From NCBI GenBank assembly GCA_003142575.1, contig PLMS01000078.1, positions 1 to 37,121 of the forward strand: DNA of 37,121 bases, read 5' to 3'. A model generated the notes under the pieces. The model ran no database searches, was not told the origin of the DNA, and worked only from the letters and a program-made list of their open reading frames with translations. Below are positions 3,557 to 35,981 of this stretch, piece after piece. The translations under genes were made by a program, and so were the position numbers. Each line of letters opens with the position of its first letter. The first letter of the stretch is position 1. This DNA is from Ignavibacteriota bacterium (GTDB taxonomy: Bacteria; Bacteroidota; Ignavibacteria; UBA10030).

Positions 3557-5593
3557 TCACCAGATCACCACTCGCGCGCTGTCCGGACGCCACATGGCGT
3601 CGCCGTGTTGAATTCCAAATGCTGTATAAAACTCCGGCATGTTCGATAATGGACCGATAACACGGAATTTTGCAGGCGAGTGTTCATTGCTGCGCACCTG
3701 ATTGGCAATCGCTTCCGGCCGTTCGTTCACCATCCACGCAAATGCATAACCGAGGAAGAAGCGCCGGTCTGGTTGTAAACCCGCGATCATTTCGTTGCTC
3801 TTATACTGATAAGTCTTCTTAAATGCTTCATACGCCATCATTGTGCCTGCGAGGTCGGCAATGTTCTCGCCTTGCGTCAGTTCTCCATTAATATGGAGAC
3901 TGTCAACAGCAATATATTCGTTATATTGTTTTACGATCATTTTTGTTTTGGTGTAAAACTTGATGCTGTCATCGCTCGTCCACCAATTATTCAAGTTTCC
4001 ATTGTTATCGTACTTGCTTCCCTGATCGTCAAACCCGTGTGTGATCTCATGCCCGAACGTAGCACCAATGTTGGAATACAGCAATGCATCGTCAGCAAGC
4101 GTACGTTCATACCCCGGAATAATAATATTGCATCCCGGTACACAGATTTCATTATTGGATGGATTGTAATAGGCATTATAGGTTTGAGGTTCCATGTCCC
4201 ATTCAGTCCGGTCGACCGGTTTGCCATATTTAGAAATCATATAATCGAAACCCCACATATTGGCACTCATCACATTGCGGACATAGGAAGAACGATCGAT
4301 CTGCATCTTGCTGAGATCTTTCCATTTGTCAGGAAAACCGACTTTCATAATGATCGTACTGAGTTTCTTGAGTGCCTTCACTTTTGTGACTTCGCTCATC
4401 CAATCCAATTTCTTTATCCGTTCTGCATATACTTCTTTGATTGCATTTCCAATCTCCAGCAGTTTTTGTTTTGTGCCTTTGGGTAAATATTCAGACATAT
4501 ACACCTGCCCGATCAATTCACCAAGCGATCCATCGGTTCGCTCGACGACACGTTTCCATCTCGGCTTCGGTTCCTGCACTCCCCGAAGTGTCGTGGAATA
4601 AAAGCTGAATATCTCAAGATATGTTTTGTCATCAAGGTACGCTGCAAGGCCGCGCACAAGGTGGTACTTGAGATAATTTTTCCAGGTATCAATAGAAACT
4701 GTTTTGAGATACTCGTTCAGCGCAGTGAGAAATTCAGGCTGGCCGACGATAACGGTATCCACGGTACGCAAACCAACGCCTTTCGTAAAAATATACCAAT
4801 CGAGATTTGGAGTAGTTTTAGTCAATTGTTTGAAAGATATTTTATTGTAATTTTTCAGAGGGTCGCGCGTGTCCTCTCGGTTGCGTGAAGTTTTTGCAAG
4901 TGCGGTCTCCAGCGTCATCAGATTTTCGGCTGCTTGTTTTGCTTTTACGTCATCATAACCTAGAATTTTAAACATATTGCCTGCGTGCACAACAAATTTC
5001 TGACGGATCATCATGGCAGCGGAATCGGCATCGAAATAGAAGCGCTTGTCGGGCAGGCTCAATCCCCCTTGCCAGATAAAGACGGCATTCTTGCTGCTGA
5101 TTCTATCATCCTGTCCCACGCCAAAAGTAAACATCGGTGAACCGGCAACAGTATGAATATACGCCGCTGCATGTATAATCCCCCTTATATCATTTATCCC
5201 GTCGATCATATCAAAATCTTTTTTAAGATCGATTATTCCTTTCTTATTAAGGGTGAGGCTGTCCATGCCGGTAAAAAAGAAATCTCCGATCTTTTGTTTG
5301 TTGCTTCCCTTTTCGGTGTTGGTCAATGCAGCGGAGGATTCGCACATGATGCGGATTTGTGCATTAATCGTATCCTGAATCAACCGCCAGAGGCCATTGT
5401 TCGCTTCGCTGGCGGGAATAGGGTTTTCTTTAAACCACCTGCCGTTTGCATACTGGAAGAAATCATCGCCGGGTTTTACAGTCGTGTCGATGTGTACAAC
5501 AAGTGGGTCTTGCGTGATTTGAGGTTGGCCAAACGAGAAAGAAACAATGATTGCCGGAACAACAAGAAGCGAAACAACGAAGGGATTTTTCAT
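3557..5593 (-). CDS. M13-family (neprilysin/PepO-type) zinc endopeptidase, exported
   Basis: A zinc metallo-endopeptidase of family M13, about 678 residues, the usual full length, cleaving oligopeptides outside the cytoplasm. The N-terminus is a signal peptide (MKNPFVVSLLVVPAIIVSF) followed by the family start GDDFFQYANGRWFKENPIP. The catalytic region holds the substrate-binding motif NAYYNPSNNEI, the zinc motif HEITH in GATFGHEITHGFDDQG, and the third zinc ligand in GENIADLAG. The end keeps MWRPDSARVVIW, but the cysteine of the usual CxxW terminal motif is replaced. The ATG at 5593 is preferred over an upstream TTG because it starts the signal peptide directly, with GAAAG eight bases before it. 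The SdpI-like gene ends 44 bases upstream, suggesting one transcript. Confidence 0.94.
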   Translation of the reverse strand: MKNPFVVSLLVVPAIIVSFSFGQPQITQDPLVVHIDTTVKPGDDFFQYANGRWFKENPIPASEANNGLWRLIQDTINAQIRIMCESSAALTNTEKGSNKQKIGDFFFTGMDSLTLNKKGIIDLKKDFDMIDGINDIRGIIHAAAYIHTVAGSPMFTFGVGQDDRISSKNAVFIWQGGLSLPDKRFYFDADSAAMMIRQKFVVHAGNMFKILGYDDVKAKQAAENLMTLETALAKTSRNREDTRDPLKNYNKISFKQLTKTTPNLDWYIFTKGVGLRTVDTVIVGQPEFLTALNEYLKTVSIDTWKNYLKYHLVRGLAAYLDDKTYLEIFSFYSTTLRGVQEPKPRWKRVVERTDGSLGELIGQVYMSEYLPKGTKQKLLEIGNAIKEVYAERIKKLDWMSEVTKVKALKKLSTIIMKVGFPDKWKDLSKMQIDRSSYVRNVMSANMWGFDYMISKYGKPVDRTEWDMEPQTYNAYYNPSNNEICVPGCNIIIPGYERTLADDALLYSNIGATFGHEITHGFDDQGSKYDNNGNLNNWWTSDDSIKFYTKTKMIVKQYNEYIAVDSLHINGELTQGENIADLAGTMMAYEAFKKTYQYKSNEMIAGLQPDRRFFLGYAFAWMVNERPEAIANQVRSNEHSPAKFRVIGPLSNMPEFYTAFGIQHGDAMWRPDSARVVIW

Positions 5594-5637
5594 GATATGG
5601 TCTTTCAAAATAAATGATACTATATGGTATACACCTG

Positions 5638-5970
5638 CTATAATTTACGAAAATAGAAGAATGAAATAATAACAAGAACACCAACCGGCAGCACTACAAC
5701 TAACCCGCCGAGTTTATTGATGATGATTACTGAAACAACGTCAGGAATTAAAACAACGACGATGAGTACGACGAGAGAAAACAAGCTGGAAATGAGCATG
5801 CCACATCCAAAGAATTTGTTTGCCTTATACCATACAGCCTCGTCCGGCATTGTTTTACGTGTACGAACCCCATAGAAACAATTTGGGCGCACTTTTTGAA
5901 GTATCAGAGGAATTGATAATATTATGAAAACAAAACAAAGTATCATCGGAATGATAATTTGATTGATCAT
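5638..5970 (-). CDS. SdpI/YhfL-family small membrane protein
   Basis: A 110-residue membrane protein with three hydrophobic segments (about 3-22, 50-77 and 85-105). The conserved piece between the first two, NCFYGVRTRKTMPDEAVWYKAN, shown as FYGVRTRKTM then EAVWYKAN, is the hallmark of the SdpI/YhfL family. In Bacillus, SdpI gives immunity to the SdpC toxin and also acts in signalling; most short members have no assigned role, and there is no toxin gene here. It lies directly upstream of the M13 peptidase in the same orientation. The start at 5970 has no strong ribosome binding site, so it could be weakly translated. Confidence 0.75.
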   Translation of the reverse strand: MINQIIIPMILCFVFIILSIPLILQKVRPNCFYGVRTRKTMPDEAVWYKANKFFGCGMLISSLFSLVVLIVVVLIPDVVSVIIINKLGGLVVVLPVGVLVIISFFYFRKL

Positions 5971-18538: not shown

Positions 18539-19534
18539 CTATTTCAACACTTCCTTCAACAGCCATTTATTCCAATTGAGCAACCATTCATTTGCATTTT
18601 TTTCTGTGACCGATATTAGTGGACTATACATAAGAGATTCATTGGGTGTTTTATTTTTGACTATTTTATCAAGTAATATCTCGACCGATTTATAACCGAT
18701 TTCGAAACAATTTTCTCCAACAAGACTTTGCACATATCCATTTTTTACATACTCTATTTCCTGCTGGACTGCATTTCCAGCAACTATTTTTATTTCCCCC
18801 GGATTCCATGGGAAGGGATTTTTTGATTGAAATACCCAACTACCCAGAAATGCCCACCCTTTAATATTTGGATTTGCTTTTTGTTCTCTTCTGACCATTT
18901 CAGCAGAGGGGTCCGCAATTTCAATATTATGAAATATATTTCTTTCCGGAAGCATAATATTCGGATATTTCTTAAGTTCTTCTTTAATGCCCTGAAGACG
19001 ACGCTGTTGATTCAATGCATGCGCATTACCTGAAAGTACTGCAATCGTTCCTTTGCCATTGAGCTCCTTGGCAAGTTGCCTCATAATAGCTTTCCCGAAT
19101 TCCATATCGTCTGCACCAACATAAGCAAATCGCTTACTCTTTGGTGCATCGGAATCGAAGCACAAGACCGGTGTTCCCTTATCAACAGCTTCATCAATAA
19201 CAGGTGTCAGATATTTCGCGTCAGAGCATGAGATTGCAATCCCGCTCACACCTGAACGAGTAAGGCGCTCAATTGCAGCGGCTTGTTCCTGGACATTTTC
19301 CGTTTCAGGAGTTTCCCAATCGATAACTACTTCGACGTTATATTTTTCACCCAATTCTTTTGCAGCTAAATTTGCTCCTGAATGTGCCGCAATGAAAACA
19401 GGATTTGTACCGATTTTCCCTATGAGACCAATGGTTATTTTCTTCTGGCTGGAATTATTCCTATCTGTTTGGGCAAAAATTATTCCGAGATTCACAAACA
19501 CCAGACAGAAGAGAAGAACGAGTCTGTGTCTCAT
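18539..19534 (-). CDS. Periplasmic sugar-binding-type protein (RbsB/type-1 PBP family)
   Basis: A 331-residue type-1 periplasmic binding protein. The signal peptide MRHRLVLLFCLVFVNLGIIFA is followed by KKITIGLIGKIGTNPVF and AAHSGANLAAKELGEKYNVEV, then PVLCFDSDAPKSKRFAYVGAD, read as CFDSDAPKSKRFAYVG, and IAVLSGNAHALNQQRRLQG, motifs of ribose/galactose-type binders. It should bind a small sugar-like ligand in the periplasm. No ABC permease or ATPase gene is adjacent, and it lies 162 bases after a chemoreceptor gene, so it may present ligand to a receptor instead of a transporter (inference). The ATG at 19534 is chosen, rather than an upstream start, because it opens the signal peptide and has AAAGGA upstream. 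Confidence 0.88.
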   Translation of the reverse strand: MRHRLVLLFCLVFVNLGIIFAQTDRNNSSQKKITIGLIGKIGTNPVFIAAHSGANLAAKELGEKYNVEVVIDWETPETENVQEQAAAIERLTRSGVSGIAISCSDAKYLTPVIDEAVDKGTPVLCFDSDAPKSKRFAYVGADDMEFGKAIMRQLAKELNGKGTIAVLSGNAHALNQQRRLQGIKEELKKYPNIMLPERNIFHNIEIADPSAEMVRREQKANPNIKGWAFLGSWVFQSKNPFPWNPGEIKIVAGNAVQQEIEYVKNGYVQSLVGENCFEIGYKSVEILLDKIVKNKTPNESLMYSPLISVTEKNANEWLLNWNKWLLKEVLK

Positions 19535-19552
19535 AGTCTTCGCATCCTTTCG

Positions 19553-19568
19553 CTTATCTTGCGATAAG
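19553..19568 (-). promoter_or_regulatory. 5'-leader hairpin of the binding-protein gene
   Basis: CTTATC (19553-19558) and GATAAG (19563-19568) form a six-base-pair stem whose minus-strand loop is GCAA, a stable GNRA tetraloop. It lies immediately upstream of the AAAGGA ribosome binding site of the binding-protein gene. It could protect the mRNA 5' end or tune translation; alternatively the DNA palindrome could be an operator. Confidence 0.35.
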
Positions 19569-19695
19569 TCATTGTGTGCAAAAATCATAATGCCCCTTTG
19601 TGGAAACGATAGTACTTCCATAGTTCTAATTCTAACCATTGATATTTCTAAAGTATATGTCCTGAACAAACCAAATTTTCCATTTCAGTATATTG

Positions 19696-21327
19696 CTATA
19701 TATGGCGTAATAAGGCATTTTCCTTACCAGAATATTGAGACCGCATCTTTGCCTCAAGTGATTTTTGAAGTGTCTGTGAAAGTGCTCCATTTTCATTTTG
19801 AGCGTTCAACTTGAACTGATTAACAAGTGATTGAAGAGTTTCTGTCAATCGATTCAGATCTTCTGCAGCACGGGCAATCTGCTGAGTGCCAGAAGCTGTT
19901 TGCTGAGTTACACTGGCTATGGCTTCCATGTTCTTACTAATCTGTTCGCTGGTGCTCGATTGCTCTTCGTTCGCGACGGCAATCTGCGAGACCATGTGTG
20001 TCACTTTCTGCGATATCTCTACGATCTCTTGCAGTGATACACCGGCATGATCTGCCAATACAATTCCTGCATCCACTTGCTTCGTCGCATTTGCCATTGT
20101 GCGAACTGCACCATGACTATCTGATTGAATTTGCTGAATCATCCCCGCAATTTGTTTTGTCGCCTTTGTGGTCTGTTCTGCCAGCTTTCTCACTTCATCA
20201 GCCACTACTGCAAAACCGCGACCCTGCTCGCCTGCTCTCGCCGCTTCAATAGCAGCATTCAGAGCCAAGAGATTTGTTTGATCAGCAATATGTTCAATCA
20301 CTCCAATGATCTCGCCGATCTGATCGCTTGATTTTCCAAGATTTTGAATTGTTCCAGCCGATTCTCGCACAACATTAGCGATTTGTTTCATTTCATTTAC
20401 TGTATCCAATACGACTTTTCCACCTTGCTCTGCAGCACCTTTGGCTTTCTCTGCGGTGTGCGCTGCCTCTCCTGCATTCTCTGAATTCACAGCAATGCTT
20501 TTTGCCATTTGTTCAACAGCCCGTGCTATTTCTTCCGATTGGGTTGTTTGTTCCTGGGAACCTGCAGCCATTTCTTCGGTGCTAGAGCTAATTTGTGCGC
20601 TTGCACTCGCAACCGATGTTGCCGTTTCGGATACTCGAATCAATGTGTCACGTATGGAACCCACAAACCGATCAAAGGAATTTTGGAGTTGACCCATCTC
20701 ATCTTCTCGGGTTGTATTAAACTGTGTGTTCAGATCAGCATTATCGATACTCACTTGTACAGCTTTGATGTCTTTTACCAAAACCCGTGCATACATAATA
20801 ACCCATATAATCCCCAATACAAGGATGATTAAATTAATAATTGAAGACACAGCTACTTGTCTATAGACCGCAGCCATGACCGGCTCCATAGAGATGCCAA
20901 CAATCGTAGTTCCCAGTTTCTTTCCCTTATATTCAACCGGACGCGACTCCATGACAATATCCTTTGCATCATCAAATTCTACCTGGCGCAATAGTGTCGT
21001 TATGTCATATTTCAGTTGTCGCGGATTATGCTCAACAATGGTTTGGTTGGATTCATCCAGGATCAATATAAAAGCAACAGCAGGATCTTTCTTTGCCCAG
21101 TTGAAGGACGTTTGAATGAGATCGAAATTTCCGTCGTTCAATCCAGCTCCAACCGAGAAGGAAAGCGTTTCCGAAAGCAACCGGGCATTGTTGTCCGATG
21201 CATCACGCCCAGCCGACTTTTGATTGATCCAGTAGTAGATGATTCCAAAGAAAGTAATCACCAATAATGGAAGAAGAAATATTGCGATCAGTCTAGCTGT
21301 TAATGATTTTTTAATTATGTCCATCAT
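19696..21327 (-). CDS. Methyl-accepting chemotaxis protein
   Basis: Inner-membrane chemoreceptor of 543 residues. TM1 is at about 11-33, a periplasmic domain of about 125 residues at 35-158 (small single-Cache/four-helix size, ligand unknown), TM2 at about 160-180, HAMP at about 182-236 and the signalling domain at about 240-505. The hairpin tip is conserved: [20 protein letters not shown] then [21 protein letters not shown]. Methylation helices rich in E/Q and A flank it. There is no C-terminal NWETF-type tether. AAAGGAG precedes the ATG. It is the only receptor in the window and lies downstream of the chemotaxis genes, probably signalling through the CheA/CheW encoded upstream. Confidence 0.95.
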
Positions 21328-23000: not shown

Positions 23001-24596
23001 TTAGCACCGTTCTTGATACCACCATCGTCTGACAATGTCGCTCACGCTCGTCGACGTATTACTTATTTTCCATTTATCAAAAAACTTTATATCCGCGCTC
23101 GCAGGTTCTGGATTGGGAGGATCCATCTGTACTCGCAGCGGCATAGGAACCGCATCACCGACTATCAATGCCTCTCCTTGACGAAGTGAAGGAAGAAGAT
23201 TTTCCAGACCGGGAAACGTGTCCGCAACAAGCTGACGCACATAATTCTGATCAACCGGATTTGTAAGACGCATCACTACAAAATTGTTACATTGCGACAG
23301 AATCGTCTCAGAAATATCAGATGGCCTCTGACTAACGATCATACAGCTTACGCCATATTTTCTTCCTTCTTTCGCAATACGTTCGACTGTGCGTCTTGCA
23401 GATTGCGTGCCCCCGGCATTTGAAGATAGATAATTATGCGCTTCTTCAAAAACTAGGAGAATCGGACATTCGCGCCGATTAATATTCCAAAAATTAAAAT
23501 CAAATGCGAGTCTCGCCATAAGGGAAACAACGGTGTTGACGATGTCGAACGGAACACCGCTCATATCCATGATCGTTACCTTTGATTCACCATTCGGCCC
23601 AAACATTTTTGTCAGTAATTCTGAGAACGATTCAGAGTGGATATATAGTCTTGGTCGGAACATGAAATCATATCGTGGATCGTTCAGTTTTGTATCAAGC
23701 TGTACAAGAAACCGGGCAAACTTGCCATAAAAGGGTCCGCCCTTCTCTGTCTCGAGAGCTTCTAACTTCGAACGCACCTTCGCAAAATCATAGTACACAG
23801 GCGTATCAATGGTGAGAACATTTTTTAATTCCGGATTTTGAAGACGTTTTGCCTGAAATACCAACTCTTTTAAAATGGTGATGTGGGTCGCCGCGTGCTC
23901 ATCTGCAAGATCAACAAATACTTCCATCATTTCCTGAAACGTCATCAACCAAAACGGCAATTCGAGTTCGGTCAAATTTAAATATTGGCTGTTTTTCGGG
24001 AACGCACTGCGATATTCATTGTGAATATCCAAAATAACGACCTTCGTCGCAGGATTACCGATTACCTTTTGTAGGATTGAAGCAACACTGCATGATTTAC
24101 CGGAACCGCTTGCTCCTATAATTGCAAGATGCTTTCCAAAAAACCGATTTGGATCAAGATAAGCACGCTCATTTTCAAAGTGTGTCATCGTACCGGTTGA
24201 AAATCCAAACTTTTGGAACACCGAGAAAGCAATAGCAAGGTCTTTTTCTTCCAGCAGATACACAGGTGCTTCTGCCGTTGGAAAAGTAGAAACTCCTCGC
24301 TCGAAGATACCGTTTTTCACCGAACCGACGAGGGAGATGATCATCTCATAGTGAGCAGTGGTCTTTCCATTTTCACCATATTCCATTTTCCTGAATTCTG
24401 ACACCATCCCCAATAGCACCTGTCTGCCAACGGGCACAAGCACATACGAACCAATTTGTCCGATAGGATATATTTTTCCATTTAGTTGCAATGAGAGGCT
24501 TGATAGATGCGGATCAAGAGCAACGGTTGCGTTTGAAGTCGTAACCTTGCGAATAACACCGATCCGTTTTTGATCCCATATTGTTTTTACAGCCAT
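23001..24596 (-). CDS. HerA-like DUF87 ATPase/translocase
   Basis: A 531-residue ATPase of the HerA/FtsK superfamily. The N-terminal beta-barrel (HAS-like, about 10-115) precedes the P-loop GASGSGKS (161-168), then ILDIHNEYRSAF (about 188), the Walker B line CPILLVFEEAHNYLSS with E384/E385 (about 377-392) and the sensor region CMIVSQRPSDIS (about 418-429). HerA proteins form hexameric rings that move DNA and often partner with NurA nuclease in repair, or with SIR2 or other effectors in anti-phage systems. Neither NurA nor an effector is encoded next to it; it sits between a hybrid histidine kinase and a response regulator, which is unusual. AAGG precedes the ATG. Confidence 0.9.
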   Translation of the reverse strand: MAVKTIWDQKRIGVIRKVTTSNATVALDPHLSSLSLQLNGKIYPIGQIGSYVLVPVGRQVLLGMVSEFRKMEYGENGKTTAHYEMIISLVGSVKNGIFERGVSTFPTAEAPVYLLEEKDLAIAFSVFQKFGFSTGTMTHFENERAYLDPNRFFGKHLAIIGASGSGKSCSVASILQKVIGNPATKVVILDIHNEYRSAFPKNSQYLNLTELELPFWLMTFQEMMEVFVDLADEHAATHITILKELVFQAKRLQNPELKNVLTIDTPVYYDFAKVRSKLEALETEKGGPFYGKFARFLVQLDTKLNDPRYDFMFRPRLYIHSESFSELLTKMFGPNGESKVTIMDMSGVPFDIVNTVVSLMARLAFDFNFWNINRRECPILLVFEEAHNYLSSNAGGTQSARRTVERIAKEGRKYGVSCMIVSQRPSDISETILSQCNNFVVMRLTNPVDQNYVRQLVADTFPGLENLLPSLRQGEALIVGDAVPMPLRVQMDPPNPEPASADIKFFDKWKISNTSTSVSDIVRRWWYQERC

Positions 24597-26976: not shown

Positions 26977-27753
26977 CTATGTCTTTGGAAGTGTAAAATA
27001 AAACCGGGCACCATTATCCACTTTTCCTTCAGCCCACACACGTCCGCCATGTCTTTGGATAATCCGCTTGACAATGGCCAGACCAACTCCTGTTCCTTCA
27101 AATTCTTCTATCTCGTGCAATCGGTGAAATACGCCAAAAAGACGATCGACATATTTCATATCAAACCCAACTCCATTATCATGTACGCAATACACTATTT
27201 CTCCATCATACAAATATGAATCGATTTCCACTTCTCTCTTCTCTCGATAATGTGTATACTTGATTGCATTTGAAAGAAGATTGTACCATACTTGATGAAT
27301 GAACGTTGCATCTCCATATGCCGGAAGTAATGGGTGAAGTGTTATCGCGTAAGAGGATGGTGCAGTTTCACATTCCAGTAATTCGTCGATCACCTTTTGT
27401 GCTATCACTGTCATATCAACAAAAGAATGTTGGGGATCAGACTTAACCAATTTTGAAAATGCGAGCAACCCGTCAAGCAGTTTCTCCATTTGTTCGGAAC
27501 TTTCTGTAATCTGCTGTAACAGGGTAGACTCTTTCGTATCGAAATTCGCCGCATGTCGTTGACTGAGCCACTCACAATTGTTTCGGATTGCACGCAACGG
27601 TGCGCGCAAATCGTGAGATATAGAATACGACAGTGCTTCTAATTCATTAGAGACAGCCTCAACAGTCATGTCCGTAGTATTTTGATGAGATGCAAGTTGG
27701 TTTCGCATACTTTGGATGTCTTCTTTCCGACTTTCAGTAATTGTACATTCCAT
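26977..27753 (-). CDS. Soluble histidine kinase without sensor domain, coupled to cheB
   Basis: A 258-residue minimal histidine kinase. The dimerisation/phosphoacceptor helix has H47 in LSYSISHDLRAPLRAIR; the ATP domain has WYNLLSNAIKYTHY (N-box), VHDNGVGFDM (G1) and GTGVGLAIVKRIIQRHGG (G2). No PAS, membrane or receiver domain is present; only about 40 residues precede the H-box. I place the start at 27753, where ATG overlaps the cheB stop (TAATG) and has AGAGGAAG upstream, rather than 45 bases further inside cheB. This tight coupling suggests it works with the chemotaxis proteins, perhaps as a second phosphodonor for CheY or CheB (inference). Confidence 0.9.
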   Translation of the reverse strand: MECTITESRKEDIQSMRNQLASHQNTTDMTVEAVSNELEALSYSISHDLRAPLRAIRNNCEWLSQRHAANFDTKESTLLQQITESSEQMEKLLDGLLAFSKLVKSDPQHSFVDMTVIAQKVIDELLECETAPSSYAITLHPLLPAYGDATFIHQVWYNLLSNAIKYTHYREKREVEIDSYLYDGEIVYCVHDNGVGFDMKYVDRLFGVFHRLHEIEEFEGTGVGLAIVKRIIQRHGGRVWAEGKVDNGARFYFTLPKT

Positions 27754-28910
27754 TATAGAACTTCCTCTCTTCCAATAGGAATGCGTGCTTTTGACCATGC
27801 TTGTGACAATCGTTCGAGTGCTACTGCTATATTATCGAGCGATAGCATAGAATCCACAAGACCTTCTTCATGTGCTGCCCGAGGCATACCATACACTACA
27901 CAGCTCTCTTCATCTTGACCGATTACATATCCGCCTTTCGATCTGATGTGCTGCAGTCCTTCGATCCCATCTTTTCCCATGCCGGTCATAATAATACCAA
28001 GCAACGGACCTTGAAATGCCGCAGCAGCAGATGTCATCATGATATTTACTGAAGGCCGATATACGATGTCCGCTGGTCCGTCTGAGATTTCTATTGTTAC
28101 ACGAGAACCGTTATTACAAAACGCCATTTGTTTTCCACCGGGAGCAATCAGAACTTTTCCGGGCTCAAATGCTTCCCCATGCTCCGCTTCTTTTACATGA
28201 ACCTTACTGATACTATTCAACCTTTCTGCCAATGTTCTGGTAAAATGAGGTGGCATATGCTGAACAATACCGACACCTAAGGGAAAATGTTCGGGAAGTT
28301 GTGGAATAATATTAAGCAGCGCTTGCGGTCCACCGGTCGACACACCAAGTACTACAGCATTAAATTTCAATACCACACTTTCGAAACTAATATTCTTTGG
28401 TTTGGGTTTGTTTTGAACTGTTTTACTGTGTGAAGACTGTACCAGTCTCCTCATACGAAATCGTGTTTGCACTAAACGGCTCCGTGCAATTTGTTTTACT
28501 TTCTCGACGAGTTCGTCTTTGATATTTCTGATATTGATCGAGATATATGACAAATCTTTGGGAATAAAATCAACAGCTCCTAAGTCAAGTGCCTGCATGG
28601 TCGCTTGTGCACTCTCTGTCGTCAATGAACTCACCATAAGCACCGGCACCGGCATTTGGTCCATAATAATTTTGAGTGCAGTGAGTCCATCCATCCCGGG
28701 CATATCAATATCCAGTGTAACAATGTCCGGTTTCAAGGTGCTGATCTTTTCTATTCCTTCGTTCCCATCGCGGGCAGTCCCAATAACACGAATTTCAGGA
28801 TCTGATTCGAGCATGAGCGTCAGCGATTTCCGCATGAATGCGGAATCATCAATCACAATAACTTTCACCATATTTTCTTCTGACGGCATCAGAATACCTC
28901 CCTTACTCAT
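27753..28910 (-). CDS. cheB: CheB, receptor methylesterase/deamidase response regulator
   Basis: CheB removes methyl groups from chemoreceptor glutamates, giving adaptation. Residues about 15-130 form the receiver with DD21-22 and phosphoacceptor D67 in TLDIDMPGMDG. A linker rich in R and K follows (about 140-175). The esterase domain (about 183-375) has the catalytic triad S191 (GVSTGGP), H218 (VQHMPPHFT) and D314 (MTGMGKDGIEG). The length of 385 is slightly above usual because of an 11-residue N-terminal extension. Its ATG overlaps the cheA stop (ATGA) and its stop overlaps the next kinase start, so all three are co-translated. Confidence 0.97.
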   Translation of the reverse strand: MSKGGILMPSEENMVKVIVIDDSAFMRKSLTLMLESDPEIRVIGTARDGNEGIEKISTLKPDIVTLDIDMPGMDGLTALKIIMDQMPVPVLMVSSLTTESAQATMQALDLGAVDFIPKDLSYISINIRNIKDELVEKVKQIARSRLVQTRFRMRRLVQSSHSKTVQNKPKPKNISFESVVLKFNAVVLGVSTGGPQALLNIIPQLPEHFPLGVGIVQHMPPHFTRTLAERLNSISKVHVKEAEHGEAFEPGKVLIAPGGKQMAFCNNGSRVTIEISDGPADIVYRPSVNIMMTSAAAAFQGPLLGIIMTGMGKDGIEGLQHIRSKGGYVIGQDEESCVVYGMPRAAHEEGLVDSMLSLDNIAVALERLSQAWSKARIPIGREEVL

Positions 28911-30616
28911 GCTACCTTCCCAAAATGATGGGCAACCAATTCGATAAATCGACCTACATCGATAACTAAAATAACACTCCCGTCTCCAAGAATCGTAGAA
29001 CCCGCAATACCAGGAACATCACCGAGGTAATTGCCCAATGTCTTAATGACCACCTCTTTTTGTCCCTGGAGAGAATCGACGAGAAGTCCAATTCTTTTTT
29101 CTGCCCAACCGACTATCACAACATATGAAACAGCTGACTGTTGAACAGTTAGATTTTTTCCAATGATGTCGGACATTCTTGCGAGCGGCAGAATTGTATC
29201 ACGCACTCGTATAACTTCACGTCCTTGAATGCTGTAGATTTCTTCGGGAGTAATCCGAACGATTTCGAGTACTGCACTTAACGGAACAGCAAATATCTCG
29301 TCAACCACTTTCAAGAGGAGACCTTGGATGATCGCAAGTGTCAAAGGTACCTTCAAAGTGATGATTGTTCCTATTCCTAAATTGGAATCGATTTCGACGA
29401 TACCTTTTAATTTTGCGATGTTAGTTTTGACAACATCCATTCCAACCCCTCTCCCCGACACATTTGTAATTTCTTGCTTCATACTAAATCCTGGAATGAA
29501 AATTAAATTGAGAGCATCGGATTTTGACATTTCTGCAGCTTCAATTTCCGAAATTAACCCCTTTTCGATCGCTTTCCTTTTTGTTTTCTCAATGTCAATA
29601 CCTCGACCATCGTCTTCCATGGTGATCAGAATGTAATTTCCATCACGCTCTGCGTTGACGACAACTATTCCTTGCGCCGGCTTCCCTTTGCTCTTTCTTT
29701 CTTCAGGAGATTCGATACCATGATCGACAGCATTACGAATCATGTGAATGAGTGGATCTTTTAATTCCTCTATAATGGATTTATCCAGTTCAGTTTCTTT
29801 TCCATAGATTTGGAGGTCTACTTCTTTTCCTATCGTGCGCATAACCTCTCGGGCAACAAGCGGAAGTCCGCTAAACACTTTTTCTATAGGAACCATCCGT
29901 GTTTTCATGACCGCCATTTGAAGTTCTGTTGTCACAAAATCAATCTGACTACTGACGTCAGCAATCTGCTTCGACATATCTAAACGTTCATATTTTTCCG
30001 TCAAGGAATGTGCAGCCTGTGAAAGGCGATTGCGAGCAAGGACAAGCTCTCCGACAAGATTCATCAAATCGTCAAGTCTGCCAACATCAACACGGATGGT
30101 TGTATCAACTGCATGTTGAGGCTGAGCCTCAGCCAGTTCAGCGCCATGCACAATTGATTCTATGATTGATGGTGCTGCAGCTTGAACTTGAACCGGCGCA
30201 GACTGCTGTTGCATCCCTCTCCGTAATTTTTCTAGAATACCTTCCATTTCTATAGGATGCAGATTTCGACTTTCAATCCGCTGTAAGAGCACACCCGCGG
30301 TCTTATGAACGTCTATAAGCACATCAATTATTTCACTCGTGGCAGCACAGTCGCCTTTCCGAAGCTTATTCAACAGATCTTCACTGGTATGTGCCAATTC
30401 AGCAATTTGGCTGAATCCAAGAAACGACGATGTCCCTTTCAGTGTGTGCATTGCTCTAAAAATATTGTTCAGCACATTCACGTCCGATGGAGCTTTTTCC
30501 AGCGCAAGCAGATCCTGACTCAAGTGATCGAGAATTTCTCTTGCTTCAACAAGATAGCTTTCGAATATTTCCCGCATCTCTTCATCAAAACCAGGTGCAG
30601 TCTGTTCATTGTCCAT
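28907..30616 (-). CDS. cheA: CheA chemotaxis histidine kinase lacking a P2 domain
   Basis: The central chemotaxis kinase, 569 residues, shorter than typical CheA. P1 (about 10-120) has phosphoacceptor H57 in FRAMHTLKGTSSFLGF. Instead of a P2 CheY/CheB docking domain there is only a Q/A-rich linker (about 135-172). P3 dimerisation (173-240) includes LDDLMNLVGELVLARNRL, read as DLMNLVGELVLARN. P4 carries N295 and H299 in MIRNAVDHGIE, DDGRGID (335-341) and GRGVGMD (388-394). P5 (about 430-569) is the CheW-like regulatory domain. It should autophosphorylate under receptor control and pass phosphate to the two CheY and CheB. It lies 44 bases downstream of a CheZ-like gene. Confidence 0.96.
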   Translation of the reverse strand: MDNEQTAPGFDEEMREIFESYLVEAREILDHLSQDLLALEKAPSDVNVLNNIFRAMHTLKGTSSFLGFSQIAELAHTSEDLLNKLRKGDCAATSEIIDVLIDVHKTAGVLLQRIESRNLHPIEMEGILEKLRRGMQQQSAPVQVQAAAPSIIESIVHGAELAEAQPQHAVDTTIRVDVGRLDDLMNLVGELVLARNRLSQAAHSLTEKYERLDMSKQIADVSSQIDFVTTELQMAVMKTRMVPIEKVFSGLPLVAREVMRTIGKEVDLQIYGKETELDKSIIEELKDPLIHMIRNAVDHGIESPEERKSKGKPAQGIVVVNAERDGNYILITMEDDGRGIDIEKTKRKAIEKGLISEIEAAEMSKSDALNLIFIPGFSMKQEITNVSGRGVGMDVVKTNIAKLKGIVEIDSNLGIGTIITLKVPLTLAIIQGLLLKVVDEIFAVPLSAVLEIVRITPEEIYSIQGREVIRVRDTILPLARMSDIIGKNLTVQQSAVSYVVIVGWAEKRIGLLVDSLQGQKEVVIKTLGNYLGDVPGIAGSTILGDGSVILVIDVGRFIELVAHHFGKVA

Positions 30617-30660: not shown

Positions 30661-31272
30661 TCAACTACTTTTTTCATTTTCTTTCCACGCTGTTACGACT
30701 TCGTCGATCTTTGTTTGATGTTCGGGCGTTTTCATGTACGAAGCATTCACATCGAATGATTTGGGACCGGCTTTCTCTTCCTCAACATGACGTCTCGCCT
30801 CGTCGGTCTTCAACTTCGCAGTTTCAAAAAAGTTCAACTCGTTCAGCAATTCTCTGCGAACAGACTCTATCAGATGGTTTGCTGCACCAATTTTTTGTGC
30901 TGTAATATCCTGCACCTGTAAAGCTACCGTGATGTTGCTGGTATTCTCCTTCAACTCTGATAGGGTTTGTCTGATACCTGTAAGCATTAATAGTTGACGT
31001 TCGGGAATTCCTTTTCCATCGAATTCTTTTAAGCCATTCTCAACCATATGAATCTTGGTTCCCATCTGATCGAGAACGTCGAGAATTTCCACCGTAGCAA
31101 GTTCCGTCGCTTCTGTTACAGTGTTCAATTGAACCGATGCATTAGGAATCTTGCTCGAGCTGTCTTCAATTGCATTCTTGATGCGGTCGAGCAACGTAAT
31201 AACCTTCTGGAGAGCAGTAATTACACTTTCTGTTGTCCCTGCATCCTCATTCACTTTATTTTCATCTAGCAT
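30661..31272 (-). CDS. CheZ-family CheY-P phosphatase, copy 1
   Basis: A 203-residue helical protein of the CheZ family, expected to dephosphorylate CheY-P. The long helical hairpin has IPNASVQLNTVTEATELAT (about 42-60, seen as QLNTVTEATELAT). The catalytic stretch LQVQDITAQKI carries D122 and Q126, in the same D-x3-Q spacing as the catalytic D143 and Q147 of E. coli CheZ. The C-terminal tail ends in KIDEVVTAWKENEKSS, an amphipathic segment recalling the CheY-binding tail helix of CheZ. It sits directly upstream of cheA; AAGG precedes the ATG. A tandem paralogue follows in the upstream position, so the pair is unusual. Confidence 0.83.
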   Translation of the reverse strand: MLDENKVNEDAGTTESVITALQKVITLLDRIKNAIEDSSSKIPNASVQLNTVTEATELATVEILDVLDQMGTKIHMVENGLKEFDGKGIPERQLLMLTGIRQTLSELKENTSNITVALQVQDITAQKIGAANHLIESVRRELLNELNFFETAKLKTDEARRHVEEEKAGPKSFDVNASYMKTPEHQTKIDEVVTAWKENEKSS

Positions 31273-31345
31273 ACTTTCACCTTTTGTTTTATACTACACC
31301 TTAATAATTTGTTTTTTTAACCGTTCAGATTCTCACATTCCACGT

Positions 31346-32083
31346 TTATAATTGTCCTGCACGTGCCTTACTTAACAAGGACTCAACCATCTTCTTCCGC
31401 TCTATCTCACCTACGACTTCCGGATCATTCGGAAGTGGGAGATTGATGGAGAGTGGCTGAACTGCTGGAACGCTGAAGAATCCGGTGGTAAGCTTTCGCA
31501 GCTCTTCAGCAATTGCCTGGATCGTACCCATGACAGTACCAATGTGCTGCTGAGTGATATCCTGCACTTGAAGTGCCATCATAATTTCTGTGCAATCATC
31601 CTGAAGGTCCTTCAGCAATCGTTCGAGGTTGCTTGTCGGACCGCTCATTTTCATACTGCGAAGGTGCGCTGCCCACGCTTCAGCAAGTTCTACAATGTCC
31701 GCATCCCAACCCGATTTCTCGACCAATGTCTTCACGATTCCTGCCATTTTATTTGTCGCAACACCAAGATCGGATGCTATCATGCCCGAAGACACAGAAG
31801 TGATCACTTGGTCAAGTGTTGTCACCATTTTATCCAACGTATTTAATATTTGGGTAGACGCTTGTTCCGTCGCTTCCGTCACACGTCCGAGTTGACCGGC
31901 AGCTTTGGGGATATTCGTCATCGCCACTTCCAACACTGCTTTGAGATCTTCAATAGCTGGACTAATTTCATTCAGAAAACCAGCGATTTCATCGAGAACC
32001 GGAATAGTGCGCTGACCGTATTCACAGAATACTTTCATTTCAGCGGCTTTTTGTAGAACTTTTTCAACTTCCTGTTGGTTCAT
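31346..32083 (-). CDS. CheZ-family protein, copy 2
   Basis: A 245-residue paralogue of the adjacent CheZ-like protein. It shares IPKAAGQLGRVTEATEQAS (about 58-76, seen as GRVTEATEQASTQIL) and the catalytic stretch LQVQDITQQHIG with D175 and Q179, so phosphatase chemistry appears intact. It is longer than copy 1, with about 50 extra residues between the two helices (about 95-150, including SGWDADIVELAEAWAAHLRS, read as DADIVELAEAW), and its C-terminus (KKMVESLLSKARAGQL) differs. It lies between cheY copy 1 and CheZ copy 1 and has GAGAGGA before its ATG. The differing tails suggest each copy may prefer a different CheY; this is inference. Confidence 0.78.
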   Translation of the reverse strand: MNQQEVEKVLQKAAEMKVFCEYGQRTIPVLDEIAGFLNEISPAIEDLKAVLEVAMTNIPKAAGQLGRVTEATEQASTQILNTLDKMVTTLDQVITSVSSGMIASDLGVATNKMAGIVKTLVEKSGWDADIVELAEAWAAHLRSMKMSGPTSNLERLLKDLQDDCTEIMMALQVQDITQQHIGTVMGTIQAIAEELRKLTTGFFSVPAVQPLSINLPLPNDPEVVGEIERKKMVESLLSKARAGQL

Positions 32084-32135: not shown

Positions 32136-32528
32136 CTATTCCGTACTAACTTGAACGGTCTTGAGAATACCTTCGATCTTTTCTTTCAATTCCTGCGGCG
32201 TGAATGGTTTCATAATGTAACTATTAACTTTTGCCTGAAGTGCCTCTACGACATCATGCTCGGTTCCGCGGGTGGTGATCATGAGAATCGGCATGGATGA
32301 ATACAATGGATTCGATCGAACAATTTTGATAAAATCCAATCCGTTCATTTCGGGCATGTTCCAGTCGGTAATAATAAAATCCACTTTGCCGTTTGGAAGC
32401 TTTTCAAGTGCCTCTTTTCCATTTGAGGCTTCAATCGTATCTGTAAAACCCACAGTCTTTAACGCATTCGTGATAATGCGTCGTATGGTGATCGAATCAT
32501 CCACAATGAGAATCTTTATTGATGCCAT
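32136..32528 (-). CDS. cheY: CheY-like single-domain response regulator, copy 1
   Basis: A 130-residue stand-alone receiver. It has acidic D10/D11, phosphoacceptor D55 in IITDWNMPEMNG, T85/T86 in MITTRGTE and K107 in YIMKPFT, all canonical. The DWNMPEMNGLDF run and KPFT match motility CheY proteins closely. It should bind the output motor or machine when phosphorylated by CheA. It is immediately upstream of CheZ-like copy 2, with AGAGGA before its ATG. Confidence 0.93.
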   Translation of the reverse strand: MASIKILIVDDSITIRRIITNALKTVGFTDTIEASNGKEALEKLPNGKVDFIITDWNMPEMNGLDFIKIVRSNPLYSSMPILMITTRGTEHDVVEALQAKVNSYIMKPFTPQELKEKIEGILKTVQVSTE

Positions 32529-32672: not shown

Positions 32673-33059
32673 TCACCCTGTATGTGGAATTGTTTTATGG
32701 ACAAATCGAAAGACTTCTCGTTGTATGGCTTCCGTGCTGAGCGGTTTTTCTAAAAATGCTAGCGCTCCACTTTCCAATGCAAGGTCTTTATCCTTCAAAT
32801 CGGTCATCGAAGAGAGAACGATAATCGGGATATCCTGATACTCGGGCGTTTCTCGAAGTGTACGGATGAATTCATATCCGTCCATATCTGGCATATTGAG
32901 ATCGGTGATGATGAGATCGAATTTTTCTGACGGCATTCGCTCCAGCGCTTCTATCCCGTCTCCCGCCGTAACCACCCGAAATCCTTTCATATTCAACGAT
33001 GCGGCAACAAACTTCCTCACTGTCGCTGAATCGTCTACAACGAGAACTACTTTTTCCAT
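32673..33059 (-). CDS. CheY-like single-domain response regulator, copy 2
   Basis: A 128-residue receiver with D9/D10, phosphoacceptor D53 in LIITDLNMPDMDGYEF, S83/S84 in VLSSMTD instead of the usual T, and K105 in FLEKPLS. It is less like motor CheY than copy 1 and could serve as a phosphate sink or act on another target. AAGGAG precedes the ATG. It lies 7 bases after the cheR stop and 144 bases before cheY copy 1, so all are one transcript. Confidence 0.92.
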   Translation of the reverse strand: MEKVVLVVDDSATVRKFVAASLNMKGFRVVTAGDGIEALERMPSEKFDLIITDLNMPDMDGYEFIRTLRETPEYQDIPIIVLSSMTDLKDKDLALESGALAFLEKPLSTEAIQREVFRFVHKTIPHTG

Positions 33060-33065
33060 ACTCTA

Positions 33066-33941
33066 CTACTCCTTCTTGTAAGCGGTCGTCTTAGGAATGC
33101 TCACCAGTTTAAAAGCGGTTGAAATCCTGTGTAACATTTCCGAGAAACCTATAAAGAGATATCCGCCCCGATTGAGGCTGTTGAACAGATCTCCAACAAC
33201 CTGGATTTTTGCCTTCTCATCAAAGTAAATGAGAACATTTGCGCAAAAAATGAAATCGAAGTGCATCATGTGCCGCATCTTTTCCCGATCTATCAAATTA
33301 ATGTATTCGAAACGAACCAGTTCTTTCACTTCTTGCCGCAATCGATAGACGCCGTTGGATTGGTCAAAATATTTATTCAAATATAGTTTCGGCATACTGC
33401 GGATTGCATATTGATTGTATTCTGCTTTGTGTGCCATGTCGAGCACTGCTGTATTGATATCTGTGCCGATGATTTCGATACGTAACTCCGGATACCGAGG
33501 TTTGAGATGTTCGAGATACAACATAGCTAATGAATAAGGCTCTTCCCCGGAAGAACATGCTGCACTCCATATTCTCAGTGTTCGATTATTATATGCCTTC
33601 TTTGCTTCGATGACTTCCTCAGCAAATTTCTTTTGAAATGCATCGGTCTGCGCATCGTTCCGAAAGAAAGAGGTTTCGTTGATCGTAATGGTATTGCATA
33701 GGAACTCGAACTCGTTTTGTCTTAGTTGATCATATTTCAACAGTTGAAGATAATCCTCAAAATGTCCGAGCTTGAGTACTTGCAGGCGTTTTACAAGTCT
33801 TCCCTCGATCAAATACTTCTTCTTCTCAGGGAAAAAAATACCTGTTTTCGAATAAATGAAGTCCCTCAGCATAACGAAGGTTTCTTCAGAAAGCTTTGGA
33901 GCGAAGTCAACTCGGATTCTATCTTGGGCCTGTTCAAACAC
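33066..33941 (-). CDS. cheR: CheR, chemoreceptor methyltransferase
   Basis: CheR transfers methyl groups from S-adenosylmethionine to receptor glutamates. At 291 residues it is complete. The N-terminal helical domain (about 15-95) includes YLIEGRLVKRL and TITINETSFFRN; the SAM domain has LRIWSAACSSGEEPYSLAM (about 122-140, core ACSSGEEPYS), GTDINTAVLDMA (about 158) and FIFCANVLIYFD (about 228). Start is GTG at 33941, two bases after the HEAT-gene stop, with only a weak ribosome binding site. With cheB it forms the adaptation pair; no cheD was seen. Confidence 0.96.
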   Translation of the reverse strand: MFEQAQDRIRVDFAPKLSEETFVMLRDFIYSKTGIFFPEKKKYLIEGRLVKRLQVLKLGHFEDYLQLLKYDQLRQNEFEFLCNTITINETSFFRNDAQTDAFQKKFAEEVIEAKKAYNNRTLRIWSAACSSGEEPYSLAMLYLEHLKPRYPELRIEIIGTDINTAVLDMAHKAEYNQYAIRSMPKLYLNKYFDQSNGVYRLRQEVKELVRFEYINLIDREKMRHMMHFDFIFCANVLIYFDEKAKIQVVGDLFNSLNRGGYLFIGFSEMLHRISTAFKLVSIPKTTAYKKE

Positions 33942-33943
33942 GT

Positions 33944-34465
33944 TTAAGGTGTTCCACGATCAAGTGACTCATTTCTGTTGGTTGGTGTAATCGCTTCCAC
34001 TGGAATTCCAGCAGCTTGGAGCGCCATAAGAGCGGCTTCCCGCACCATCTCGTTTTCGTCTTCGACAAATCGAGCGATACATTCTAAAGCACGACGTGTT
34101 GGCATAGTGACAAGCTGTTCGATCATATGCACACGAGACCAAGGATCCATGTCAACCATAACGCTTTGAAGAAATACAGCAGCACGATCACAGTTGATTC
34201 GAAAGAGTGTGTCCGCAATAATTTCCCGATCTTCTTGATTCGCTTCGTACCAAGCTTCTGAGGTTATATCAAATGCCCGTTCCAATTCACTGTCATCAAT
34301 CCTGTATCCGCGAAAACCCTTAAGAGAACGTACAAATTCGCTTGCAAGTTCACCGAGCAGCATCATGATTTGTATTTTTCCACATGTTACTCCTGCTTCG
34401 AGGCACTCGACTGCTATTTGAAATACACGTGGTCGGACCGGCGCATCTGCGCTACAATGACACAA
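33944..34465 (-). CDS. HEAT-like protein, or the downstream part of a frameshifted HEAT gene
   Basis: A 173-residue open frame, probable TTG start, that overlaps the end of the next HEAT-repeat gene by 52 bases in another frame. Its C-terminal half shows HEAT-type helices: DMDPWSRVHMIEQLVTMPT, read as WSRVHMIEQLVTMP, and EDENEMVREAALMALQAAGIP, read as NEMVREAALMALQAAG. The first 33 residues (VFQIAVECLEAGVTCGKIQI) look like real protein although they precede the first ATG (34366), which suggests the two frames were or are one polypeptide. It may be a separate protein using the internal ATG, or the tail of a frameshifted gene. It ends just before cheR. Confidence 0.6.
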   Translation of the reverse strand: MCHCSADAPVRPRVFQIAVECLEAGVTCGKIQIMMLLGELASEFVRSLKGFRGYRIDDSELERAFDITSEAWYEANQEDREIIADTLFRINCDRAAVFLQSVMVDMDPWSRVHMIEQLVTMPTRRALECIARFVEDENEMVREAALMALQAAGIPVEAITPTNRNESLDRGTP

Positions 34466-35400
34466 TCCATCTCTTCGGAAATCCCAAGAGAAAGAAGCAG
34501 TTCTTTCGTTACAACAGGATCCTTAAATTGAATAAGTCCCTTTGCGGCACTCAGTTGAATTTGATGATTATCATTGTGCAAAGCATGCAGCAAGTCATTT
34601 CGCATTTTGTCATCTAATTGATATTCTAGATTACATCGTTCGATGATTAACACTGCTTCGTGCAGCAGTACATCCCGAAGTGGATCTTTGATCGCTTCAT
34701 AATTTGCTAGAAGTACTTCGAGTGTATCAGCATCTCCTACAATTCCTAAAGCGTCGAGCAACGCGAAGAGATATATTTCCTCCGCGTTGCCGGCGTTGAT
34801 TGCATCCCGATATTTGCTCTCGAGGTATTCACGGACAGAATCGCCGCCAATTTTTCCGAGCGCTTCGATTGCGATGATGCGGGTGAATGGATAATGCTCG
34901 AACGTATTGAAAATTGGTTTGACCGCTTCACGGCTACCGATATTACCGATGGCCTCAATGGTTGCAACAAGAACATTCTGATCTGGATCTCTCAAGAGCG
35001 GTAAGAGGTAATAAATTGGTTCCTTGCTCTTGATCTCGCCAAGAATATCCACTGCTAATTTGCGAATGTCCTTGTCAACATCTCTCAAATATGGAACAAG
35101 TGCGTGAACAGAAGCTTCTCGCAATTGGACGAGCAATTTTGCAGCGAGGTTTCGAGAGGTGATATTCTCATCCCCGATATGGTGGACAATCGCACGAGCA
35201 GTAGCCACTCCTCCGATGCTGAGAAGTGCACGCGAGACAGCATCCTCGACTCCTCTGTTTTCATCCTCCAAGGCTGTGGAAAGGACTGCAAGAGCATTCC
35301 GGTCATCACATCCGGATAGGTCTTCTGCAGCTCTACGTCGGACATCAGGGTCGGGATCTGTTAGCAGAAGACAGATAAGATTGTTCGTCTGTTCATTCAT
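34414..35400 (-). CDS. HEAT-repeat scaffold protein
   Basis: A 328-residue cytoplasmic protein built of about nine HEAT repeats of roughly 31 residues. Each shows the pattern of two short helices with conserved D-P-D and R-x-A: LTDPDPDVRRRAAEDLSG, DVDKDIRKLAVDILGEIKS, read as DIRKLAVDILGEI, and RDPDQNVLVATIEAIGNIGS, read as NVLVATIEAIGNIG. Such solenoids bind other proteins. It lies between cheW and cheR, so it may organise the chemotaxis array or tune the methylation enzymes (inference). The end of the frame (RRSDHVYFK) lacks a repeat-like finish, and HEAT sequence resumes in another frame just downstream. Confidence 0.85.
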   Translation of the reverse strand: MNEQTNNLICLLLTDPDPDVRRRAAEDLSGCDDRNALAVLSTALEDENRGVEDAVSRALLSIGGVATARAIVHHIGDENITSRNLAAKLLVQLREASVHALVPYLRDVDKDIRKLAVDILGEIKSKEPIYYLLPLLRDPDQNVLVATIEAIGNIGSREAVKPIFNTFEHYPFTRIIAIEALGKIGGDSVREYLESKYRDAINAGNAEEIYLFALLDALGIVGDADTLEVLLANYEAIKDPLRDVLLHEAVLIIERCNLEYQLDDKMRNDLLHALHNDNHQIQLSAAKGLIQFKDPVVTKELLLSLGISEEMDCVIVAQMRRSDHVYFK

Positions 35401-35477: not shown

Positions 35478-35981
35478 TCATTTTGTCAACTCAAGCTGTT
35501 GTTTCTCCTTATCCCGAAGAAGTCGTTCGAGATCTAAAAGAATCAGCAAACGATTCTCCAGTTTTGCGACAGATACGATATACTCTGATCCGATACCAGC
35601 AATAATAGCAGGTGGTGGTTCTGTTATGTTTTTGGGAATCCGTATCACCTCACGTACTGTATCCACAACAAAGCCGACGACCATGTCGCCTAATTCGACG
35701 ACAATAATACGCGTATTTTTGTCGCTTTCTTTGGGGGGGAATCCAAAACGCTTTCGCAAATCAATGATAGGAATAACTTTTCCACGGAGATTAATAACAC
35801 CTGTGACAAAATCCGGCGAATTCGGCACTCTCGTAATCTCTACCATTCGATTGATTTCTTGAATGCTTTGGATATCCAATCCGAACTCCTCTTGCCCAAT
35901 CGTAAAACTCACAAGTTGAAGAAGCTCTTCCGTCTGAGCTTTCACTCCCTTCTGTGTCCTTACATCCATTGTAGTTGTCAT
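35478..35981 (-). CDS. cheW: CheW coupling protein
   Basis: CheW links chemoreceptors to CheA in the signalling array. The 167-residue protein has the usual twin beta-barrel layout: LVSFTIGQEEFGLDIQSIQEI, read as FTIGQEEFGLDIQSI (about 25), VEITRVPNSPDFVTGVINLR, seen as VPNSPDFVTGVINLRG (about 53), VIPIIDLRKRFGFP (about 70), and VGFVVDTVREVIRIP (about 105). A short charged N-terminal extension of about 20 residues precedes the domain and an LERLL/KQQLELTK tail follows. AGGAG lies close before the ATG. It is the first gene of the chemotaxis operon. The region upstream holds its promoter, although I cannot define the boxes. Confidence 0.95.
   Translation of the reverse strand: MTTTMDVRTQKGVKAQTEELLQLVSFTIGQEEFGLDIQSIQEINRMVEITRVPNSPDFVTGVINLRGKVIPIIDLRKRFGFPPKESDKNTRIIVVELGDMVVGFVVDTVREVIRIPKNITEPPPAIIAGIGSEYIVSVAKLENRLLILLDLERLLRDKEKQQLELTK

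Follow-up and report, generated by a model that had tools for sequence, protein, structure and literature searches.

Two divergent CheZ-type genes in tandem in one chemotaxis operon of an uncultured, Ignavibacteria-like bacterium

Placement in the cell depends on particular parts of the CheZ proteins studied: E. coli CheZ is placed by the tip of its hairpin and, for Azorhizobium CheZ, the N-terminal helix is enough for placement (PMC7750401). Two CheZs in one genome are described for Laribacter hongkongensis, whose cheZ1 and cheZ2 lie in separate che clusters, each with a CheA (PMC3180692), and in the proteobacterial F6 and F7 systems a CheY/CheZ pair has moved to a new CheA with flagellar output kept (PMC7184735). 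Here we describe two cheZ genes that stand in tandem within a single operon. The pair is real and conserved, and is a variant that we did not meet in the literature searched, where no tandem cheZ in one operon was reported among open-access papers, a scope outside which most subscription papers fall.

The two cheZ genes and their operon

The window, which is the whole 37,121-nucleotide stretch of DNA analysed, is one contig (C7) of a 3.28-Mb assembly of 152 contigs (98.86% complete), hereafter the bacterium's own genome. Its che genes run in the order CheW, HEAT-repeat protein, CheR, CheYa, CheYb, CheZ-A, CheZ-B, CheA and CheB:

35478..35981, minus strand: CheW (profile search)
33944..35400, minus strand: HEAT-repeat protein, a conserved operon member (ORF list, profile search, relatives' loci)
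33066..33941, minus strand: CheR (profile search)
32673..33059, minus strand: CheYa, the second receiver protein (profile search, CheY alignment)
32136..32528, minus strand: CheYb, adjoining CheZ-A on its upstream side (profile search, CheY alignment)
31346..32083, minus strand: CheZ-A, 245 aa, first of the two cheZ genes (ORF list, Pfam)
31273..31345, minus strand: intergenic gap of 73 bp between CheZ-A and CheZ-B
30661..31272, minus strand: CheZ-B, 203 aa, downstream of CheZ-A (ORF list, Pfam)
28907..30616, minus strand: CheA (profile search)
27753..28910, minus strand: CheB (profile search)

A purine-rich stretch precedes the ATG of CheZ-A and of CheZ-B alike, and the che genes are presumably co-transcribed, judging by spacing alone. 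CheA was found as a single copy in the bacterium's own genome. The HEAT-repeat protein appears in the window as two overlapping frames (34414–35400 and 33944–34465) and, before CheR in four relatives' loci (L032–L035), as one ORF of 484–489 aa; the split frame may be either a frameshift or an assembly error. Elsewhere in the window, a HerA-like helicase (DUF87/HerA_C, 23001–24596) follows the che and kinase genes on their downstream side and reaches 399 bits with an anti-phage HerA model whose cut-off is 850, and a periplasmic sugar-binding-type protein adjoins a chemoreceptor (MCP) at 18539–21327, the two perhaps forming a ligand–receptor pair.

The preliminary description, made from the sequence, had placed two tandem cheZ genes at 30661–32083. 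Both open reading frames are there on the minus strand, and with 34.8 bits for CheZ-A and 32.5 bits for CheZ-B both exceed the gathering cut-off of the Pfam CheZ family (PF04344, 30.7 bits); they are the sole Pfam CheZ matches in the bacterium's own genome. Assignment to CheZ by profile thus stands at the level of Pfam and does not extend to the NCBIfam equivalogs, of which NF008368 gives 27.2 bits for CheZ-A and 20.5 bits for CheZ-B against a cut-off of 257, and NF041271 gives 16.4 bits for CheZ-A against a cut-off of 350 and does not list CheZ-B. Since these cut-offs are so far from reached, the two proteins are, by sequence, divergent and remote members of the CheZ family. The catalytic D-x3-Q pairs named earlier, D175/Q179 in CheZ-A and D122/Q126 in CheZ-B, are intact and correctly numbered, and neither the D nor the Q column varies across the 56 aligned CheZ rows; the VTEATE motif was likewise found in each protein, as claimed. 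Both are probably active CheZ-type phosphatases. They share 23% or 35% identity with each other, depending on the alignment. AlphaFold monomers, computed from shallow alignments of 6 rows, are all-helical with a mean pLDDT of 53.7 for CheZ-A and 61.6 for CheZ-B, and a Foldseek search with the low-confidence CheZ-B model returned generic helical bundles, with no CheZ among the 50 matches listed and none at E ≤ 0.001.

Distribution and history of the pair

Pfam PF04344 undercounts these proteins, scoring one CheZ each in two genomes (G240 and G014) that carry two, and for the window's order we therefore used a profile built from 16 local sequences. CheZ was found in 35 of its 98 genomes: 21 have a single CheZ, one has a fragment, and 13, the window included, have the tandem A–B arrangement that the preliminary description had proposed looking for elsewhere. 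The fragment, from a genome 55% complete (G332), was left out of the tree and the operon counts, and the loci examined are those of the other 34 genomes, window included; two other matches, both weak (G363, 20 bits, within a frame of 705 aa; G324, 28 bits, at a contig start), were set aside. Among named genome contigs, CheZ-A found two loci, in an 'Ignavibacteriae bacterium' (L032, 96% identity in A) and a 'Bacteroidetes bacterium' (L033, 92%), whose contigs we take to be those of tandem loci G322 and G324. The order HEAT-CheR-CheYa-CheYb-CheZ-CheA-CheB is common to the loci, except where contig ends cut it and in the broken G322 scaffold. On that same contig, what looks like an additional CheY and part of a receptor, lying between CheYa and CheZ-A (L032, approximately 4236–5945), was rejected as a scaffold artefact, CheYb being cut there by unknown bases. 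Within the genus, dN/dS is 0.03–0.16 for CheZ-A and 0.04–0.13 for CheZ-B, which indicates purifying selection on both; these values come from pairs with usable dS, with saturated-dS pairs, the broken G322 CheYb and a wrong G324 CheB match excluded. Given its presence in 13 loci of the order and these low ratios, the tandem arrangement is neither chance nor decay.

Across a sample of the phylum, 4 of 45 CheZ-bearing genomes have two Pfam CheZ matches, by a model that undercounts, and in two of these (G160 and G058) the matches lie on separate contigs. No second CheZ was found at any of 24 loci outside the order with a motif pattern applied within 1.5 kb (23 loci have one CheZ and L003 none), a pattern that could miss divergent CheZs and, inside the order, missed the A protein of L006 and L029. 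One CheZ of the phylum sample (G247, L003/L050) scores 183 bits, far above all others and unlike its relatives; it may be either a foreign gene or contamination.

In a tree of 56 CheZ rows, including 13 A, 31 B-type and nine outgroup rows from outside the order, the 13 A proteins group in a single clade (100/100), and a second clade (31 rows, 100/100) unites the 13 tandem B proteins with 18 single CheZs. Full-length single CheZs of two genomes (G243 and G363) fall outside both. The single CheZ of a further genome (G330; 81% complete, without FliM) sits on a long branch, and neither its joining to A (p-AU 0.54) nor to B (0.38) is rejected; it could be an A without a B. With that exception A is never seen without B, and B-type proteins stand alone in 18 genomes. 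As A has a clade of its own and B groups with 18 single-copy CheZs, A looks like an accessory copy and B like the core enzyme of the order. Content differs even within a genus: one member (G346) has A and B and another (G347) only B, with an 87-bp gap from CheYb to B and no remnant of A, which means that A can be dispensed with. In a quick tree of CheR, CheA and CheB, the window's family contributes nine tandem operons that group together (SH-aLRT 100), and the four from a second family lie apart from them, so that a minimum of four changes in the tandem state is required. Two histories would fit: an ancient duplication after which A was lost several times, and a transfer of A.

Anatomy of the two proteins and their probable CheY substrate

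CheZ-A has an N-terminal region, 'EYGQRTIPVLDEI', of a type ([FY]-x-x-[QEK]-[RK]-x2-P) that is present in 13 of 13 A rows and in none of the 31 B-type rows, as scored by eye on printed alignment columns. The hairpin, counted from a conserved P to the catalytic D, spans 116 residues in CheZ-A (P59 to D175) and 79 in CheZ-B. All 13 A proteins have long hairpins (103–116 residues), as do most B-type singles (111–117 in 15 of 18; the other three 77, 80 and 86), and the tandem B proteins have 77–81 residues in 12 of 13, making them 26–38 residues shorter than their partner A in 12 of 13 pairs. In the exceptional pair (G361, where B has 117) both hairpins are long, and the length split is not universal. 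A rank test of hairpin length between tandem B and single B-type proteins gives p = 0.0004, on rows that are related and not independent counts. Since the hairpin tip and the N-terminal helix place the CheZs that have been studied, the candidate placement regions lie on A in most tandem genomes, and B would be a stripped enzyme.

The C termini differ from those of other CheZs of the phylum. CheZ-B has a C-terminal motif FDxNAxY. A tail of the type SQ-x2-ID-x-LF closes nine of nine outgroup rows and the single CheZs of G243 and G363, and was found in none of the 13 A rows, none of the 31 B-type rows and not in G330 (CheZ alignment, with a wider pattern and by columns). The FliM N terminus of flagellated relatives reads LSQ-x-[ED]ID-x-LL in all 13 FliM ORFs printed for 14 loci, a count that the print filter could bias towards motif-bearing rows. 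The SQ-x2-ID-x-LF tail resembles the C-terminal CheY-docking peptide of E. coli CheZ; by this likeness and that to the FliM start, the tail is taken as a putative docking peptide. A docking peptide of this kind is common among CheZs but is not the part on which the Pfam model is based.

The two genes could also be redundant duplicates, kept for dose with no division of labour. The catalytic pair is kept in both and constraint on the two is similar, as this would predict, but the deep divergence of A and B in separate clades and the lack in B of regions present in A make it improbable.

As the preliminary description noted, two CheYs stand beside the pair, both directly upstream of CheZ-A. Residues are given here in E. 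coli CheY numbering. In the CheY alignment the phosphorylation site is intact in both. CheYb carries D57, W58, T87, Y106, K109, N23 and K26, and CheYa of the window lacks W58. Of the 35 CheYb rows, which include two pieces of the broken G322 scaffold, 32 have N23 and 33 have K26; of the 32 CheYa rows, none has N23 and none has K26. We take positions 23 and 26 to face CheZ, with substitutions there presumably giving CheZ resistance, and K92 to lie on the FliM/CheZ-binding face; the literature searched gave no confirmation of either assumption. An acidic residue of CheZ pairs with the active-site lysine of CheY (PMC3035606). That lysine is present in both CheYa and CheYb, and the substrate argument therefore rests on the 23/26 face. 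With N23 and K26 in CheYb and absent from CheYa, one CheY looks like a CheZ substrate: CheYb is the probable substrate of both CheZ-A and CheZ-B, and CheYa is probably no substrate of either.

It had been proposed that the two CheZs and two CheYs are matched phosphatase–regulator pairs, one CheZ for each CheY. That two CheYs adjoin two CheZs fits this proposal, but both CheYs were seen at every tandem and every single-CheZ locus except G378, which is cut by the contig start (33 of 34 loci), so single CheZs are also preceded by two CheYs, and the genome that has only B in the mixed genus (G347) still has both. Together with the lack of N23 and K26 in 32 of 32 CheYa rows and their presence on CheYb only, this speaks against the proposal, which we consider very unlikely.

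A stronger alternative is a CheZ-A/CheZ-B heterodimer, in which a long and a short hairpin would form one four-helix bundle, with A providing placement and B a second active site. In its working form CheZ is a dimer built of hairpins (PMC7750401), the 13-row A clade is always accompanied by B in the fixed order A–B, and a long and a short hairpin are combined in 12 of 13 pairs. Yet B-type proteins alone in 18 genomes argue that B can work without A, G330 may be A alone, and gene order and co-occurrence would equally fit two homodimers; a heterodimer is possible, if somewhat doubtful.

We favour, giving it about an even chance of being right, a division of labour, spatial or regulatory, in which CheZ-A and CheZ-B act on a single CheY and the system was rewired once the flagellum had been lost. 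CheZ-A and CheZ-B would be anciently diverged paralogues that both dephosphorylate the CheYb of the sole chemosensory system. B would be the core enzyme of the order, which in its tandem form has shed the N-terminal helix and hairpin-tip regions and would work in the cytoplasm, and the accessory A would keep these regions, which place studied CheZs in the cell, and be stationed at the pole or the receptor array, either by itself or with B recruited to it. Where A recruits B, this division of labour overlaps with the heterodimer. If it is true, the catalytic and placement parts of a CheZ are naturally separated into two genes, and close relatives with A and B or with B only allow a comparative test of what CheZ localisation is for.

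Output of the system and relation to described CheZs

No FliM was found in any of the nine tandem genomes of the window's family, the bacterium's own (98.86% complete) among them; another of the nine (G335) has a completeness of just 69%. A search of 10 genomes for FlhA gave matches in 3, and none in the own genome or the five family tandem genomes that it covered. The own genome thus showed neither the switch gene nor the export gene expected with a flagellar chemosensory system. All four tandem genomes in the second family have FliM, and the CheZ pair is therefore no consequence of flagellum loss. Of the genomes with CheZ, 24 of 35 in the order and 42 of 45 in the phylum sample have FliM; in that sample the three without it (G000, G078 and G240) are all tandem. 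Within the window's family 28 of 32 genomes lack FliM; CheA is clear in 10 of these 28 (nine tandem genomes and G330), weak in two and not found in 16. The bacterium apparently lost its flagella but kept its che operon. A che system with CheZ would thus have outlived the flagellum in this family, and 9 of the 10 FliM-less genomes that keep CheA have the tandem pair.

At position 92, CheYb has E at all nine tandem loci from the window's family, and the 25 rows that come from other loci have K. Two genomes without FliM (G330 and G308) nonetheless keep K92, so K92E marks the window's lineage and not flagellum loss generally.

If the flagellum was lost and the operon kept in the window's lineage, CheYb-P must have another output, for which type IV pili would be the leading candidate. 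PilB- and PilT-like ATPases are encoded in the own genome. They occur in flagellated relatives too, and the own PilT-like ATPase scores 317.2 bits, just under the model cut-off of 319.1, so the presence of the ATPase does not single out pili, which remain a possible output of the che system. The gliding marker GldL matched 0 of 20 genomes, a result without weight, as the controls were silent too. The most specific combination, a CheZ split into a long-hairpin, placed A and a stripped catalytic B that serve a single CheY as a heterodimer, the flagellum having been lost and the system redirected (CheYb K92E, no docking tail on A or B) to an output such as type IV pili, is one to which we attach only a low probability; the broader division of labour on one CheY remains the reading that we prefer.

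Compared with the CheZs of E. coli (1KMI) and Azorhizobium caulinodans, the window pair has the same Pfam CheZ domain and D-x3-Q motif. In place of their N-terminal helix CheZ-A has its N-terminal region, which CheZ-B lacks, and a phmmer search matched 1KMI by CheZ-A only (E = 0.06) and not by CheZ-B. The window differs from both in having two tandem copies, neither with a docking-peptide-like tail, and no flagellar switch in the genome. Many single-copy CheZs of other Bacteroidota lie in the same operon type (HEAT-CheR-CheY-CheY-CheZ-CheA-CheB) and have the catalytic motif in common with both window proteins, and their N-terminal region is matched by CheZ-A. The nine outgroup CheZs have the SQ-x2-ID-x-LF type tail, and FliM in all nine genomes, and the window pair has neither. 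Laribacter hongkongensis has two CheZs per genome, as the bacterium described here does, whereas the window pair shares one operon and one CheA. The F6/F7 systems keep flagellar output, unlike the window's system, which has apparently lost it, but their re-use of cheY and cheZ offers a parallel: in both, a CheY/CheZ module appears to have been reassigned, with two CheYs per cluster.
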